NCBI RefSeq assembly: GCF_003014485.1
Contig: NZ_PYGA01000002.1
Location: 372,001 to 436,000, forward strand
Source of the DNA: Murinocardiopsis flavida
GTDB lineage: Bacteria; Actinomycetota; Actinomycetes; Streptosporangiales; Streptosporangiaceae
DNA: 64,000 nucleotides
Reading direction: 5' to 3'
The notes beneath the pieces are model-generated. The model was not told the DNA's origin and made no database searches. It saw only the letters and a program-made list of their open reading frames with translations. The position numbers and the translations under genes are program-made. Shown here piece after piece: positions 12,553-63,378 of the stretch (position 1 is its first letter; each line of letters starts with the position of its first letter).

Positions 12553-13497
12553 ATGCCCCATCTGACCGAGCCCCACCTGACCGAGGACGAGGTCCTCCAG
12601 GCCGCACGCGGAGGACGAGGTCCGGGACGGCACGCGGACGGCCTGCCGGGGACGCGCCGCGCCCACCTAAACGGGTGCGCCTCCTGCGCCGACCGCGTTT
12701 CGGGCACGCGGAACCTCGCCGACGCGCTGCGGGCGGCAGAGCCGGAGGTGCGGCCGCCGTCCTTCGACGCCCTAATTGCGCCCGCCCTTGCCGCGGAGCG
12801 CGCGGCGCCCGCCGCGGAGTCAGCGCCACCGACCCTCACCGCCTCGGGCGCGGCCCGCCTTGCCGCGACCCTGGTGCTGCGCCAGGCGCGGCTGGTGCCG
12901 GCCTCCCTGTGGCCGCTGACCGCGGCGGGGATCGCTGTGCTGTTCGTGTTTGCCTGGCAGGCCCCCGATCCGTCCGTCGGCGCGGCCTTCTTCGGCCCCG
13001 CGGCGACCCTGCTGACCACGGGCGCCGCGCTCGCCGTCTGCTCCCCCAGGCGGGACCCCCGGTCCGAGATGCTGCACGCCATGCGTGTTCCCCCCGCGGT
13101 GGTGTGGCTGGCCCGCCTGGTGCTCGTGCTGGGCGCGGTGCTGGCGGCGCTGGCGGTCGCGTCGGCGGCCTCCGCGGCCGTCCTGGGCGCCCCGCAGGAC
13201 ACCGCGGCGCTGATCGCCTCCTGGCTGGGGCCCGCCGCCCTGGGAGTGGGGATGACCGTGTTCGGCACCGTGTGGCGCTCCCCCGCGGTGGGCGCCGCCT
13301 TCGGTGCCGGATCGTGGTTCATGAGCGTGCTCGGCTCCCGCGGCGCGGCGCAGCCGGGATCCCTGCCGTCCGGCACGCGCGATACGATCGGCGCCCTGTG
13401 GTCGACCACTCCGCTGAGCCTGGCGGTCTCGGCGGTGCTGCTGGCCGCGGCGGTGTGGCTGGTGTCGCGGCCGGACCGGTCCCTGGGCGAGGGGTAG
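12553..13497 (+). CDS. Membrane anti-sigma factor, possibly also an ABC-2 permease
   Basis: A 314-residue protein. The cytoplasmic N-terminus carries HLNGCASC near residues 37-44, the H-x3-C-x2-C centre of zinc-binding anti-sigma (ZAS) domains that hold an ECF sigma factor inactive. Most such proteins have one membrane helix. This one has about six, in a layout like an ABC-2 permease (for example VVWLARLVLVLGAVLAALAV and VSAVLLAAAVWLV). The next gene is an ABC ATPase with no other permease beside it. I infer that this protein may be both the anti-sigma factor and the membrane half of that transporter. Confidence 0.75.
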   Translation: MPHLTEPHLTEDEVLQAARGGRGPGRHADGLPGTRRAHLNGCASCADRVSGTRNLADALRAAEPEVRPPSFDALIAPALAAERAAPAAESAPPTLTASGAARLAATLVLRQARLVPASLWPLTAAGIAVLFVFAWQAPDPSVGAAFFGPAATLLTTGAALAVCSPRRDPRSEMLHAMRVPPAVVWLARLVLVLGAVLAALAVASAASAAVLGAPQDTAALIASWLGPAALGVGMTVFGTVWRSPAVGAAFGAGSWFMSVLGSRGAAQPGSLPSGTRDTIGALWSTTPLSLAVSAVLLAAAVWLVSRPDRSLGEG

Positions 13498-13530
13498 CGG
13501 CCGCATGGCTCCCCGGGAAGGGACGACACC

Positions 13531-14388
13531 ATGCGCGTAGTGGTCGCGGGGCTGGTCCACGCCTACCGGCGCCGCCGGGTCCTCGACGGTGTCGACGCCG
13601 AGTTCGGCCCCGGTGTGGTGGGCCTGCTGGGGCCCAACGGCGCGGGGAAGACGACACTGCTGCGGCTGCTGGCGGGCGTCCTCCGGCCGCGCACGGGGCG
13701 GGTCGAGGCGGGCGGCCACGACCTGCGCACCGGCGGGGGCCGCCGGGCGCTGCGGCGCGAACTCGGCTACCTGCCGCAGGAGGCCGCGCTCCCGCCGGAC
13801 ATGTCCCCGCGCGGCTTCCTCGACTACGCCGGGCTGCTGAAGGGCATGGCCGATCCGGGCGAGCGCCACGACCAGGCCGCCGGCCTGATCGAGCGCTTGG
13901 GGCTGGCCGCCGAGGCCGATCGCCGGCTGGGATCGCTCTCCGCGGGCGCCCGCCGCCGCGTGGGGGTCGCCCAGGCGCTCATGGGCCGGCCGAGGCTGGT
14001 CCTGCTCGACGAGCCCACGGCAGACCTCGACCTCGAAGAGCGAATCCGCCTGCGCACGGTGCTCGGCACCCTCGGCGAGGGGCGCACCGTGGTCCTGTGC
14101 ACGCACCTCCTGGAGGACGTGACCGCGGTCTGCCCCGAAGTGGCCGTCCTGCACATGGGCAGGGTCGCCTTCTCCGGGACCGCCGCCGACCTCACCGGGA
14201 TCGCCGCCGACCGCGCCTTCGAGACGACGCGGCCGCCCGACGGGGACTCCGGCGCCCCGCCCGCTCCCCTTCGCGGGCGGGTGCTCGCCGACGTCCCGCC
14301 TCCCGGCGCGCGCCCCGTTGCGCCGACCCTGGAAGAGGGCTACGCCGCGCTAATGCGCGACCTCCGCGGGGAGTCGGCCGCGGAGTAG
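13531..14388 (+). CDS. ABC transporter ATP-binding protein
   Basis: A 285-residue ATPase. Walker A is GPNGAGKTT near residue 36, the Q-loop lies in YLPQEAALPPDMS, Walker B is LVLLDEPTADLD, and the switch His is in CTHLLED. The signature is degenerate, LSAGARRRVGVAQ instead of LSGGQ, as in several drug-exporter ATPases. It begins 33 bp after the membrane anti-sigma gene and is probably in the same operon. Its C-terminus APTLEEGYAALMRD resembles the ATPase at 10067, so the locus holds two related transporters around one sigma/anti-sigma pair. Confidence 0.9.
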   Translation: MRVVVAGLVHAYRRRRVLDGVDAEFGPGVVGLLGPNGAGKTTLLRLLAGVLRPRTGRVEAGGHDLRTGGGRRALRRELGYLPQEAALPPDMSPRGFLDYAGLLKGMADPGERHDQAAGLIERLGLAAEADRRLGSLSAGARRRVGVAQALMGRPRLVLLDEPTADLDLEERIRLRTVLGTLGEGRTVVLCTHLLEDVTAVCPEVAVLHMGRVAFSGTAADLTGIAADRAFETTRPPDGDSGAPPAPLRGRVLADVPPPGARPVAPTLEEGYAALMRDLRGESAAE

Positions 14389-14403
14389 CGCCGGGAACGA
14401 AGC

Positions 14404-14795
14404 CGGGTTTCGGCTACTCGGGGTCGGACCGTCCGCGGGGCGGCCTTGTCGCCGGGCCGCGTGCGGGTGACCTGCGGGAACAAGCAGCACCAAAGGTGGG
14501 CAGTGGGTCCGGTCGGCGGCAAGGTCCCAGCGCTCCGCGTTCACCCCGGCGACCGGCCTCCGTGAAGTATTTTCCACTCCGGGCGCCGTGAAGTGGAAAA
14601 TGCTTCACGGAGGCTTCCGAGAAAGCCGAAAGTCCGCCGACCCTGGTGCTGGGTGCCGGCACGGCAGGCCGTGCAGATCACCGCACACCCGGCCCACTCG
14701 CCGCCCTTGGTGCTGCTTGTTCCCGCAGGTCACCCGCCAGCGGACCGGCGACAAGGCCGCCCCGCGGACGATCCGCCCCGAGTCGCCGAAACCCG
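14404..14795. mobile_element. MITE-like element with about 90-bp inverted ends
   Basis: The left arm (14404-14493) and right arm (14707-14795) are inverted copies of each other over about 90 bases with few mismatches and one indel. Landmarks in both are CGGGTTTCGG, GCGGGGCGGCCTTGTCGCC, GCGGGTGACCTGCGGGAA and CAAGCAGCACCAA. In the middle sits a second palindrome (14556-14614). No transposase is encoded. Diverged copies of the same arm occur at 36010-36060, 36528-36608, 62068-62130 and 63185-63250. It fills the gap between two ABC loci (14389-15063). It resembles a non-autonomous MITE or a large extragenic palindrome. Confidence 0.6.
14556..14614. repeat. Near-perfect 23-bp palindrome at the element centre
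   Basis: Arms 14556-14578 and 14592-14614 (GCCTCCGTGAAG..TTTTCCACT and its complement) match at 22 of 23 positions around a 13-base spacer. The A/T-rich inner part (TATTTTCCAC) stands out from the GC-rich surroundings. It could be an operator, a cruciform, or the cut point of the surrounding inverted-repeat element. Confidence 0.7.
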
Positions 14796-15063
14796 ACACC
14801 AATGCCGAGCGGGACGTGCGAAGCTCCACCCCGCACGCGGAACACCCGGCCCCGCGCGGCAGCCCAGCCTCCCGCGACCACCGGAAGCCTCCGGCCGGTC
14901 CGGCGCGCTCCGACCCTCGTGGCCTCACTGCGTCATGTCCGGCGACCCCACGTCCATTGACGCGGGATCGCGGTCGCGATTGCGACAGCGCCGACAGTGA
15001 ACCTCCGACCCGGTGTGCGCTACGTACCTTCCTGCCACCGGAACTCGTCGGAAGCGAGCAGCG

Positions 15064-15864
15064 ATGCCCATGCCGGAACCCGCCGGGCCGACAACCCCGT
15101 CCGCGCGGGACGACCCGTCCCTCGCCCTCCTGTGCTCCCTGGCGCTGGCCCGGCTGCGCACCGGCCTGCCCGTGTGGACGACCCTCGCCCCGCCCCTGGC
15201 GGTGACGGCGCTGCTCGCCGTCGCGGTGTCCGGCGCGGGGCGCGGACACGGGGCCGTGTGGGACCACTGGCTGGGCCTCGCCCTGTACCTCTGGGCGGTG
15301 CTGGCACCCATGCTCGCGGGTCTCTACGCGGTCGGGTGCGACCAGGCCGATGAGGGCGCCAAGCGCGTCGTGTCCACCTACGCCTTTCCCCGCCACCGGC
15401 TGCTGATCGCCGACGTTCTGGCTCTCACGGCCCTGTGGGCGGCGGGAGCGCTGCTGCTCGCGGCCCTCGTATCCCTCGCCGCCCTGGCCAACGGCACCCC
15501 CGCCGACGCGGGGACGGCGGTCGCCGGTGCCTTCGTCCCGGTCCTGGCCGCCCTGCCGACACTGGTGCTGTGCGTGATCGCGGCCGAGGCGTGGGGGGCC
15601 GCGGGCGCGACGTGCGTCGGCGTGGCCGGGATGCTCTTCGGCGCGCTCACCGGTGACAAGCCCTACTGGTGGGTGTTCCCGCCGGCGTGGCCGACGCGTG
15701 CGGTCATCCCCGTCGCCGAGACCCGTGGGCTCGGCGGCTACTACGCGCCGGGCGACCCGGTGCTCTCGCCCTCCGTCCTGCCCGTGATCGCGGTCGCGGC
15801 CCTTGCGCTCAGCGCCGTGCTGCTCGCCGCGGGCTCCCGGTACGTCGACCGGCGGGAGATGTGA
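15064..15864 (+). CDS. ABC-2 permease, lantibiotic-immunity-like
   Basis: A 266-residue membrane protein with six predicted helices, including LVLCVIAAEAWGAAGATCVGVAGMLFGAL and VLPVIAVAALALSAVLLAAG. The loop VVSTYAFPRHRLLIADVLAL is shared with the next gene, which has VVYSYAFPRHRMLIGRFLAL. This pair-of-permeases layout is typical of the LanE/LanG subunits that, with a BcrA-type ATPase, expel lantibiotics or bacitracin-like peptides. GGAAGCGAGC precedes the ATG at 15064; an upstream start at 15013 adds residues of no recognisable type. No lantibiotic gene is nearby, so self-defence or resistance to a foreign peptide is inferred. Confidence 0.8.
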   Translation: MPMPEPAGPTTPSARDDPSLALLCSLALARLRTGLPVWTTLAPPLAVTALLAVAVSGAGRGHGAVWDHWLGLALYLWAVLAPMLAGLYAVGCDQADEGAKRVVSTYAFPRHRLLIADVLALTALWAAGALLLAALVSLAALANGTPADAGTAVAGAFVPVLAALPTLVLCVIAAEAWGAAGATCVGVAGMLFGALTGDKPYWWVFPPAWPTRAVIPVAETRGLGGYYAPGDPVLSPSVLPVIAVAALALSAVLLAAGSRYVDRREM

Positions 15865-15930
15865 GCGGCGGCACCCGGCCACGCGCCCGGCCCGGCACCG
15901 CCCGCACCCCGTTCCCAGAACCGTCCGCCC

Positions 15931-15970
15931 CGCACGACCGCACGACCGCACGACCGCACGACCGCACGAC
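15931..15970. repeat. Five tandem copies of CGCACGAC
   Basis: The 8-base unit CGCACGAC is repeated exactly five times (40 bases) in the 122-bp gap between the two permease genes, 16 bases before the second start codon. Copy number could vary by slippage and alter spacing between the coupled genes. Confidence 0.9.
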
Positions 15971-31797: not shown

Positions 31798-32006
31798 CAA
31801 CCCACCCCGCACCAGCGGGGAGCACCCGCGGGGCGTTTGGACGCCGCCGTGCAGGAGGGGTCCATCCCCGCGCGTGCGGGGAGCACGGGTTCACCAGCAG
31901 CAGTACGTTCGCCACCCAGGGTCCATCCCCGCGCGCGCGGGGAGCACCGCCTGGTGCCCGCCTACTTCTCCCCCAGCGCCGGTCCATCCCCGCGCGCGGG
32001 GAGCAC
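31798..32006 (-). CRISPR. CRISPR array 1, type I-E-like repeat, 4 repeats and 3 spacers
   Basis: Repeats of 28 bases start at 31798 (degenerate), 31859, 31920 and 31981, with spacers of exactly 33 bases. The repeat begins GGTCCATCCCC and ends GGGGAGCAC around a palindromic CCCCGCGCGTGCGGGG core. The last copy lacks two bases. By comparison with known I-E repeats the array is read on the minus strand. The degenerate copy at 31798 is then the leader-distal end, and the more A/T-rich stretch after 32006 is the leader. No cas gene is in the window. The repeat differs from that of array 2. Confidence 0.93.
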
Positions 32007-32272
32007 TCTTGTTGACTTCGAACGCTACCGCGACGCACCCCCGATTCTGACCACTTCTCGAAAAACGGAAACTGGCATCCACACCACACAAATCACCCGA
32101 ACGAGCACTGAGAACTACGAGACTCATTCATCCGGAAACCGCAGAGTAGAGGACGCCGACGACAGCTCGTGCGGGTTGAAGGGTTCGTCGCCCAATCGGC
32201 ACGCTGCGCGATCAGCGTGAGGTTTTCATGGACGCGCTGACAGCGTGTGCATGGGCGTCATAGCCTGTCGCC
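32007..32272. promoter_or_regulatory. Probable CRISPR-1 leader and small-gene promoter region
   Basis: The stretch right of array 1 contains A-rich patches (CTCGAAAAACGGAAACTGG near 32056), as expected of a leader read leftward. Nearer the next gene are CACGCTG/CAGCGTG (32200-32219) and CGCTGACAGCG (32235-32245), two overlapping-type palindromes that may be operators. Confidence 0.4.
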
Positions 32273-35346: not shown

Positions 35347-35801
35347 CCCTCACCCCCGCGTGTGCGGGGCTTGGCCCGGAGCCACCCCATAGGCGCTGGC
35401 CAGCTCCGGTTCACCCCCGCGTGTGCGGGGCTTGGCGCAGCAGCGCCACCAGTTCGGCCCGGTCCTTCGGTTCACCCCCGCGTGTGCGGGGCTTGGTGCG
35501 CGGCGAGGTAGACCGCCATGGCGCGCGCAGGTTCACCCCCGCGTGTGCGGGGCTTGGCCCCTCTCGTGTTCTGTGGTCCCACAAAGAATCGGTTCACCCC
35601 CGCGTGTGCGGGGCTTGGACCTGATCAAGATCCAGCGCCCCAACCTGCGCAGGTTCACCCCCGCGTGTGCGGGGCTTGGGCGAAGCTCTCCCTTGACCCA
35701 TCGGGGGGAGGCGGTTCACCCCCGCGTGTGCGGGGCTTGGAAGTACAGCCCGCGCAACCCGACGTCGCCGTACGGTTCACCCCCGCGTGTGCGGGGCTTG
35801 G
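35347..35801 (-). CRISPR. CRISPR array 2, type I-E-like repeat, 8 repeats and 7 spacers
   Basis: Repeats of 28 bases start at 35347, 35408, 35469, 35530, 35591, 35652, 35713 and 35774. All seven spacers are exactly 33 bases (61-base period). The repeat begins GGTTCACCC, has the palindromic core CCCCGCGTGTGCGGGG and ends CTTGG. Read on the minus strand it ends in GGTGAACC, like known I-E repeats. The leader would therefore lie to the right, and the copy at 35347, with its first three bases changed, is the old leader-distal end. No cas genes are visible. All full copies are identical, so the array looks maintained or recent. Confidence 0.97.
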
Positions 35802-36007: not shown

Positions 36008-36670
36008 CGGTTCGCTGGGCGGCCTTGTTCGCTGTCGGCGCCCGGTTTCTGGTGGAAAAAGCAGCAGCAAAGGCGGCAAGGAGCGATGCCCCCGGCTGGA
36101 TCGGCCGGGGCGGGCGGTCGAAGTCGGGGTTCTCCTTGGCCCCTGCGGGGGTTCCGCGGGCCGCCCGCGCGTAGCCGCGTCCCTGGCAGCGAAAAGCACG
36201 GCTACCTGCGCAGAGCCGCACCCACGGAGGGTGTTTGGCGGGGTATGTTCCTTTTGGTGGCGGGGTGCCGCGCGCGAGTTGCTGACCTGCCATTTTGTGC
36301 GGGGCTCCGCATCGCGGTGGCACAACGCCCCCGGCCCCGTGTGCAGCGGTGGCCTATCCGCGCGTGCCCCGGCCCACCGCTGGCCGTTGCTGCCCCGTCG
36401 CGCGGCCCGCCCCTCGCGCACCCCGGCCGATCCAGCCGGGCATCGCCCCCTGCCGCCGTTGCTTCTTCTTATCCCCATCCGCATACCCGACCCGATCCAG
36501 CGGGGCCCAGGCCCCCACCGCCGTCGGTGCTGCCTTTAACCGCAGGCCACCCGCGCGCGGCCCGGCGACAAGGCCGCCCAGCAGACGGATCGACCCTAAA
36601 AAAACCCGCACGATCCGGCCAGGGCCCCGCCCCCTGCCGCCGTTGCTGCTTCTTAATCCCCACCGCGCAT
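36008..36670. repeat. Long mosaic of inverted repeat modules
   Basis: No credible gene lies between 35900 and 36820. A left arm (about 36010-36115: GGGCGGCCTTG, AGCAGCAGCAAAGGCGGCA, GGCTGGATCGGCCGGGG) is inverted relative to a right arm (about 36419-36608: CCCCGGCCGATCCAGCCGGG, CTGCCGCCGTTGCTTC, GGCGACAAGGCCGCCCAG). A second copy of CCCCTGCCGCCGTTGC occurs at about 36632. The arms belong to the same family as the element at 14404-14795. It lies between the CRISPR-2 leader and the next AraC gene. Confidence 0.55.
36186..36217. repeat. 32-bp block repeated at 62338-62369
   Basis: Thirty-two bases beginning GCAGCGAAAAGCACGGCTAC are identical at 36186 and 62338. Looser similarity continues on both sides: CGCGTCCCT before, CACCC and TTGGCG after. 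About 60 bp further right both places again share a GAGTTGCTGACCTG / GGCAGCTGACCTG block. Order and spacing are kept, so a longer noncoding module was copied. Confidence 0.8.
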
Positions 36671-61691: not shown

Positions 61692-62569
61692 CCCCCATAC
61701 GAGCGAAGGGCTGAGCGGCGGGCTGAACGGAGGGCTGAACGGAAAGCGACGACGCCGAGCAGGTAGGCACGGTTCCCCGAGGGCGAGCACCGAACCCTCC
61801 AGCGCCGCCGGGTGAAGCGCGGCGCACGCGACAGGGCCGATGGGCCGGCCCGGTACCGGTACCGGTACCGGTTACATGGCAGCCCATCACCGCGCACATG
61901 CGCACCCTGCATTGCGCACACCGCATCACCAGGTGCTGACTCGGGTCCGTGCCGAGGGCGGGAAAGGGGACCCGGCGTCGCTGTGCCGAGCAGAGTGCGC
62001 GGTGGGCAACAACAGCACCACAGGCAGCGGAGGGCTGGGCCCGGCGGCATCGAACCCGCTATCTGAGATCGGTCCGTCCGCTGGGCGGCCTTCTCGCCGA
62101 GCCGCGTACGGGTGATCTACGGGAAGAGCAGCAACGACGGCGGGCGGAGGGCCAGGCCCGGCGAGATCGAGCCGGGTGCACGGTGGGCGGCAGCAGCAAC
62201 GGCGGCGGCGAGGGGTCGGGCTCCGGTTGCCTCGGTCGGGGTGCGCGGGGGCCGGGGCAGCGATGGCCGGTGGGTGTCGGGGGGCGCGGTCGGCGGCGGG
62301 GCCTCTCGGGGCCACCCGCACGCATGCGCGTCCCTCCGCAGCGAAAAGCACGGCTACCTGCGCAGAGCCCCACCCGCACAGGGCGATTGGCGGTGAATGC
62401 CCCTTCTGACAGCGTGGTTCCCGGCGAAGAGGCGCCGATTCGGGCCCCGCACCAAGATCATGTCCATCATGCGAACGAGTGATCGGCCGAGACCGCCGTC
62501 ACGCGCCCGGATTGCGGTGTGGTGTCCGGTTTTTGCGGGTGGTGTGGGCCTGCGGGTGGCGGGATGCCC

Positions 62570-62599
62570 ACCCAGACGTCATACGGGTGACGTCTGGGT
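62570..62599. repeat. Perfect 12-bp stem-loop
   Basis: ACCCAGACGTCA (62570-62581) and TGACGTCTGGGT (62588-62599) are exact inverted copies around TACGGG. It could be an operator (the TGACGTCA-like halves suit a dimeric regulator) or a terminator-like RNA hairpin. No gene edge is close. Confidence 0.75.
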
Positions 62600-62881
62600 T
62601 GACCCTCTCATCGAGTTCTCACGATGCGAGACACCCGGGATGGCGGGGTGCCGGACCCGGGCAGCTGACCTGCGCTTCTGCGCAGGACGATGCGCCCGCC
62701 CACCCAACGCCGTCGACCCAACGGCAACGACGGCATGCTCACGCACCCACCGACCCGGGCACCAGAAGGACTGCCGCTACGCGGCACCGCACGGAAACGG
62801 CCACGGGCACCCGGAGGCGAGACCGCCCCCGAAGCAAGGCGCCCGCGGGCAAGGGCGTCCGTGACCCCAAGGGAACAGGAG

Positions 62882-63095: not shown

Positions 63096-63378
63096 CAGGT
63101 CCGCTGGGGGCAAGGACGCTCTCGGCACCCACCCCCCGCACACCTCAGCCGATCCAACCGCGCCCCGACCACCCGCCGCAGTCGGCGCTACTTGTGACCA
63201 CCGACCACCCGCGCGCGGACCAGCGAGAAGGCCGCCCCTCCGACGGACCGACCCCCGCGCGCACCGCCCGATCCGCCAGGGCCGCCAGGGCCGCGCCCAG
63301 AAGGTAGGGCTCGCACCACCTGGCAGACGCTCCCCTGGGGGCGTGATCGGCGCAGGCCGGATCTCTAGCGTTATCGGC

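Follow-up and report, generated by a model that had tools for sequence, protein, structure and literature searches.

A family of long inverted repeats with shared arms in Murinocardiopsis flavida: probably small mobile DNA landing at other palindromes

Introduction

What kind of element is a 392-bp inverted repeat that lies between two genes and encloses a second palindrome? The question is raised by positions 14404-14795 of the window, by which we mean the whole stretch of 64,000 nucleotides of Murinocardiopsis flavida DNA analysed here. The source genome (G000, the own genome below) is an assembly of 7.38 Mb in 75 contigs. A sequence-only reading had proposed a MITE-like element, with a local regulatory RNA as the alternative. 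We found that the element belongs to a large family, probably of small mobile DNAs that insert within other palindromes or next to them. The data agree better with a non-autonomous mobile (MITE-like) element than with a conserved local RNA.

Results

The inverted repeat in the window

The 392-bp inverted repeat surrounds a 59-bp palindrome, named P2 (Table 1). Its arms, 14421-14519 and 14681-14779, are 99 nt long and 87% complementary, and the 20 nt outside them pair at 95%. In the centre, 14556-14578 pairs with 14592-14614 (23 nt, 96%). The inverted arms of about 90 bp and the 23-bp central palindrome described earlier were thus confirmed. The predicted fold has an energy of -318.7 kcal/mol against a mean of -189.4 (sd 7.4) for 100 dinucleotide shuffles, none of which folded as well (z = -17.4). 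The inverted repeat is not a product of chance. Such an extreme fold would suit a long hairpin useful to the host, such as a transcript terminator, an RNase III substrate or a chromosome-organising site, which is transcribed or extruded and kept by selection. We regard this explanation as unlikely because of the distribution of the arms and the make-up of the single arm, given below.

The element is apparently non-coding, as stated earlier. A third-position-GC gene caller placed no gene across 14404-14795, its neighbours being 13531-14388 and 15013-15864, both on the plus strand. However, long open frames do cross the element, for example 12675-14591 and 14588-15205 on the plus strand and 14605-15951 on the minus strand, as is usual at such GC content. 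The frame 14588-15205 had no match in Pfam, and Rfam at the gathering score gave no match in the 64-kb window.

Table 1. Positions of the arm elements and their parts in the window.
Feature	Position	Strand	Basis
Class-1 element (392-bp inverted repeat)	14404..14795		Inverted-repeat scan, fold
Left arm, outer extension	14404..14423	+	95% complementary to 14776-14795
Left arm unit of about 74 bp	14424..14497	+	nhmmer 66.8 bits; model R1 73.8 bits
Central 59-bp palindrome P2	14556..14614		Inverted-repeat scan, copy comparison
Right arm unit of about 74 bp	14703..14775	-	nhmmer 61.2 bits; model R1 68.3 bits
Right arm, outer extension	14776..14795	-	Inverted-repeat scan
Left-end arm unit of second element, about 200 bp past CRISPR array	36008..36075	+	nhmmer
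Arm unit, right end of second element	36520..36593	-	nhmmer
Arm unit, left end of class-2 element	62069..62142	+	nhmmer
Class-2 conserved core	62339..62673	-	335-336 bp in 9 of 12 pattern-found copies
Arm unit, right end of class-2 element	63178..63251	-	nhmmer

Copies of the arm

The conserved arm unit is about 74 bp long and the whole arm about 100 bp or more. An iterated profile search detected 82 units, six of them in the window and the others in 35 own-genome stretches, which were picked for matching the arm, so that the density of arms there is meaningless. Outside 14404-14795, the window units form two more convergent pairs, and none of these four units overlaps a called gene. The four further intergenic copies noticed from the letters alone were therefore recovered by nhmmer and the gene caller. 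The genome-wide search proposed at that time as a check also yielded abundant copies outside the window: a sequence-only arm model (R1), made from 64 hand-chosen own-genome copies, gave a minimum of 101 genomic copies at E <= 1e-3, from scoring 150 of 26,527 first-look candidates. A 15-bp core of the arm matched the window five times with up to two mismatches, against a shuffle mean of 1.46, and one of 100 shuffles reached five. As this is just modestly above chance, the case for the family rests on the whole arm.

A conserved fold of the single arm was considered and rejected, since two pairs were predicted within the arm over the 64 copies. It is the sequence of the arm that is conserved and not its fold, which suits a protein-binding end and argues against selection for a host-useful hairpin.

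Phage and plasmid records contained no match to the window element, nor did plasmid records match one class-2 element or one element of the relative G020. Pattern searches of IMG/VR gave 0 hits and 3 single hits. Those of genome contigs, from which near records were possibly left out, gave 0 hits and 21 single hits in scattered taxa, and the latter were taken as chance.

Arrangement of arms and intergenic position

Arms lying up to 1300 bp apart were grouped into 85 clusters, 40 in the own genome and 45 in relatives, with the stretches L127-L168 excluded. A convergent pair was present in 63 clusters, a single arm in 18 and tandem arms only in 4, and no cluster was divergent. When the limit was raised to 1800 bp, the arms of locus L020 paired across an IS30-like gene and the counts changed accordingly (64 convergent, 16 single, 4 tandem and 0 reverse, of 84 clusters). 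Incomplete elements in the own genome comprise 13 single and 4 tandem-only clusters of the 40. One-sided tandem arms were seen in elements at G098:C1:5210052-5210498 (127-bp step) and G183:C1:1197818-1198168 (142-bp step).

No called gene overlaps 84 of the 85 clusters, as judged by a simple scorer of our own that missed some neighbours (both in L084). The interiors between paired arms measure 85-1158 bp, or 1631 bp with the IS30-like insert. Among the clusters examined, a gene lies between paired arms just in L020, where it is the IS30-like one, and one call overlaps in L053. Where both neighbours were called, they were convergent at 11 of 37 own-genome clusters and 8 of 17 clusters in G020, compared with 42 of 179 and 9 of 35 neighbour pairs overall in the same stretches, clusters included. 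These neighbour counts are in favour of host-useful hairpins.

Centres of the elements

The P2 centre is common to ten own-genome loci (the window element, L016, L017, L020-L024, L027 and L029), and no standalone P2 was found in the own genome, with 40 of 49 candidates scored. Covariation within P2 is weak: compensation was seen in 5 pairs over eight copies, a set that omits L020, which is interrupted, and L027, which is enlarged, and 11 of 500 shuffles scored as high. The flanks of L017 and L029, which both bear P2, are related to each other (86% over 1.8 kb).

Class-2 elements have another centre, a core of about 336 bp. Twelve copies, including that in Table 1, were found by pattern, partial copies being uncounted, and several small dyads are visible in the core. 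The mean column identity is 79% over ten of the twelve copies; L039 and one copy in L046, both longer, were omitted. The core was considered as a protein gene and as a structured RNA. The first is disfavoured by a flat column entropy over the codon phases (0.588, 0.568 and 0.580 in 11 copies, columns with at least 10), despite open stretches of 292-310 codons on the minus strand in 5 of 11 copies (L038, L047, L043, L040 and winC). Translated frames match between copies, as expected of related GC-rich DNA. The second is not convincing, with 8 of 82 predicted pairs changed on both sides and a covariation term of +1.03. Apart from these open stretches in several class-2 copies, the elements are short and without coding capacity and have terminal inverted repeats, both of which are features of MITEs.

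In the relatives G020, G098, G183 and G022, arms of the same family surround other centres. Since the arms are common to at least two unrelated centres in the own genome, the family is more complex than one MITE.

Palindromes of 62 bp and nesting

Many arm elements contain a palindrome of 62 bp with conserved tips and a variable, paired stem, which also occurs alone. Its form is GTTGATCTCGG in G020 and G098, and GCTGATCTTGACGAA, named P1, in the own genome. P1 matches 15 own-genome places (27 alignments, all 24 candidates scored), 5 of them without a listed arm nearby. Fourteen further palindrome places in G020 (L149-L162), 13 of which passed the palindrome scan, had no arm in the stretch of 0.9-1.0 kb around any of them. 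Among the palindrome stretches of G098 (L163-L166), L163 has one arm.

We compared 24 copies (22 distinct), all within arm elements and hand-chosen for their length of 62 nt. In these, 97.3% of cells pair, a percentage biased upward because the copies were found by complementarity. Two-sided changes occur in 17 of 24 pairs, and none of 500 shuffles scored as high, a test that is inflated by the relatedness of the copies; slid controls came out far lower. The 62-bp palindromes may form a repeat family of their own or act as terminators. Their compensatory changes, and weakly those in P2, are in favour of hairpins kept by selection.

A half of P1 lies just outside 12 of 77 own-genome arms, against about 0.08 expected, and all 12 halves are oriented as if the arm element sits in the centre of P1; count and orientation are partly circular, as the P1 query consensus was drawn from such flanks. 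A half was flagged on both sides of L016 and L033 and on one side of L032, where the other side has a weaker match by eye. G020 arms seldom adjoin palindrome halves, and these halves are of mixed orientation. In the own genome, the end of the element itself may include P1 as its outermost portion. A CCGCGG-like motif stands at both ends of L033 (by eye), and P1 itself is palindromic.

In L020, the two halves of P2 are separated by a transposase gene with HTH_38, HTH_23 and rve domains, which we take to be IS30-like. Palindromes are favoured targets of IS30-type elements. A copy of the right-end sequence of the IS30-like element has remained in the P2 loop of L027. Both the transposase within one copy and the recurrence of its right end could suggest that the arm elements are derivatives of an IS30-family element. 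However, the ends of the IS30-like element are unlike the arms and P2 (by eye) and the gene has one copy in the own genome, so that it reads as a later visitor to a palindrome loop, and descent from IS30 seems improbable.

Relatives and empty sites

A DNA search of 60 genomes gave matches in 7, G000 included. A model search of 297 family genomes at E <= 1e-5, with stricter filters by which weak matches are lost, also gave matches in 7, and the other 290 were without arms at this threshold. G000, G020, G022, G098 and G183 have at least 12-16 arm matches each, with up to 16 candidates scored, and G169 and G213 have one each. At E <= 1e-3, there are at least 61 arms in G020 (150 of 17,955 candidates scored) and 24 in G022. 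None of the 61 arms found in G020 lies in the first 1.39 Mb (G020:C1:1-1398700) of its 6.14-Mb record. The lack of arms in 290 of 297 genomes at E <= 1e-5 tells against hairpins that are useful to the host.

Another possibility is that the repeats are REPIN-like and owe their movement to a RAYT (Y1) transposase, and Y1_Tnp matches are present in four of the five arm-rich genomes. However, PF01797 is absent from arm-rich G022, whereas six relatives without arms (E <= 1e-5) have Y1_Tnp, which brings the total to 10 of 20 genomes. The occurrence of Y1 transposases does not follow that of the arms. Moreover, arms of about 74 bp are not short REPs, and movement by a RAYT is very improbable.

G020 and G098 belong to one genus, and the stretches compared are 77-91% alike. 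Two 20-kb stretches of G020, chosen since each holds two elements, were compared with G098. Compact gaps were found at site 2 of L127 (953 bp in G020 and 76 bp in G098) and site 1 of L128 (727 bp and 189 bp). At site 1 of L127 (698 bp and about 612 bp) and site 2 of L128 (1066 bp and 806 bp), other sequence fills the place in G098. No arm was detected in G098 at any of the four orthologous sites (nhmmer, E <= 1e-2). The elements thus differ in presence between congeners at these four sites, as MITEs do, which is contrary to the expectation for a host-useful hairpin. Conservation at the same site across relatives, which the sequence-only reading had named as the sign of a local regulatory RNA, did not appear at the four sites. 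The proposed look at empty sites succeeded as far as the armless sites are concerned but gave no clean target-site duplication; the flanks at the G098 sites are too diverged to read one. The absence in G098 could be a loss; we infer insertion in G020, and likewise the order of nesting.

A blastn search with the flanks, the elements being masked, gave 19 locus pairs, and the gene matches between the own genome and G020 or G098 include L016-L067, L021-L091, L036-L077 and L017/L029-L084. Sites shared across genera were considered and rejected, since the element stands at different distances in the three pairs compared by eye (L084 uncompared).

Likeness of arms within and between elements

Arms of about 55 nt or more were compared within and between elements. 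Those of one element are more alike than those of different elements in the own genome (0.801 and 0.774; 8 of 2000 shuffles as high, 23 pairs), in G020 (0.878 and 0.854; 2 of 2000, 23 pairs) and in G098 (0.912 and 0.795; 0 of 2000, 7 pairs). The likeness within elements is not raised in G183 (649 of 2000, 8 pairs), and in G022 arms are less alike within than between elements (0.731 and 0.792, two pairs). Recent copying and repair between arms would each raise this likeness. Copies in the own genome have a likeness of only about 77% to each other and so show no sign of a recent jump.

Quasipalindrome correction would make arms alike and produce compensatory changes without selection or transposition. 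The repeats might then be immobile, with template switching during replication or repair giving rise to their palindromes and keeping them uniform, and the raised likeness in three of the five genomes and the compensatory pairs in the hairpins agree with this. However, template switching alone spreads no arm to more than 100 places and leaves no compact gaps between congeners. We consider immobile repeats of this origin quite unlikely.

Discussion

The elements have many copies, a regular arrangement and an intergenic, patchy distribution; they are absent from four congener sites and are flanked by palindrome halves. Judged from sequence, they are probably non-autonomous mobile elements, the arms of which are ends recognised by a transposase and which carry several cargoes and settle at palindromes. 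It is plausible that a transposase acting in trans recognises the long inverted ends as DNA, and we infer that such an enzyme exists and that the arms are its sites. The same machinery would spread different non-coding cargoes, namely class 1 with P2, class 2 with the 336-bp core, and the genus-specific centres. Elements would settle between genes, in the own genome often against halves of 62-bp palindromes, which would be preferred landing places. Settled elements may then take further insertions such as the IS30-like element, so that nested palindromes would build up.

Within the clusters examined, no transposase with ends matching the arms was found, and the sole one inside an element is IS30-like with other ends. 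Because neither a mobilising enzyme nor a clean target-site duplication was found, strict membership of the MITEs is unproven. The MITE-like reading holds for the multi-copy, apparently non-coding, intergenic and patchy nature of the elements and for their inverted ends. The sharing of arms, the several centres and the nesting in palindromes depart from it. A bolder idea is that a dedicated and so far undescribed recombinase reads the arm of about 74 bp across at least four genera and inserts cargoes with this arm preferentially at the centres of palindromes already there, producing palindromes nested like Russian dolls, some copies of which are kept by CRISPR leaders; this we hold to be rather doubtful.

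A search of the literature turned up nothing recognised as the arm family. Bacterial MITEs such as MITEAba12 are non-coding, have inverted ends and many intergenic copies, and are patchy between relatives (PMC6382973), all of which applies to the arm elements. The arm elements and their ends are far longer than these (PMC6382973), and the family differs further in its several unrelated centres, its nesting in palindromes and the fact that neither a clean target duplication nor a partner IS with the same ends was found. REP sequences are described as landing sites for insertion sequences (PMC1525189), and the IS30-like element in a palindrome loop and the arm elements against palindrome halves resemble this. 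Compared with that description (PMC1525189), the 62-bp palindromes have a fixed length and variable paired stems, and their guests include non-coding inverted repeats. Like REPINs, the arm elements are intergenic, have many copies and form hairpins from paired inverted repeats; unlike REPINs with a RAYT, they have long arms and no consistent Y1 transposase.

The arm elements look like a new family within a known type of element, and not like a system of a new kind. Three aspects are unusual: unrelated centres have common ends, palindrome halves accompany the elements, and the 62-bp palindromes vary with compensation at a fixed length. The family would be a sizeable and apparently uncatalogued addition to the classes of mobile or palindromic DNA in these GC-rich genomes, and insertions at palindrome centres would be naturally recorded in it. 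The 62-bp palindromes, with their fixed length and compensating stems, are a separate and directly testable puzzle.

Arms beside CRISPR arrays

Of nine leader-length matches in the genome (at least 91 bases; 40 of 47 candidates scored), four lie no more than 400 bp from an arm; some of the CRISPR-arm loci look like mutual copies and may therefore be one ancestral arrangement. The array at 35349 of the window, which has a different repeat, is not one of the nine matches. A second short array in the window, 31820-32010, has the same leader type and no arm nearby. Arms lie just beyond the CRISPR leaders at window 35349-35800 (arm at 36008), L031 2446-2660, L015 3378-3647, L048 2808-3007 and L047 2123-2531.
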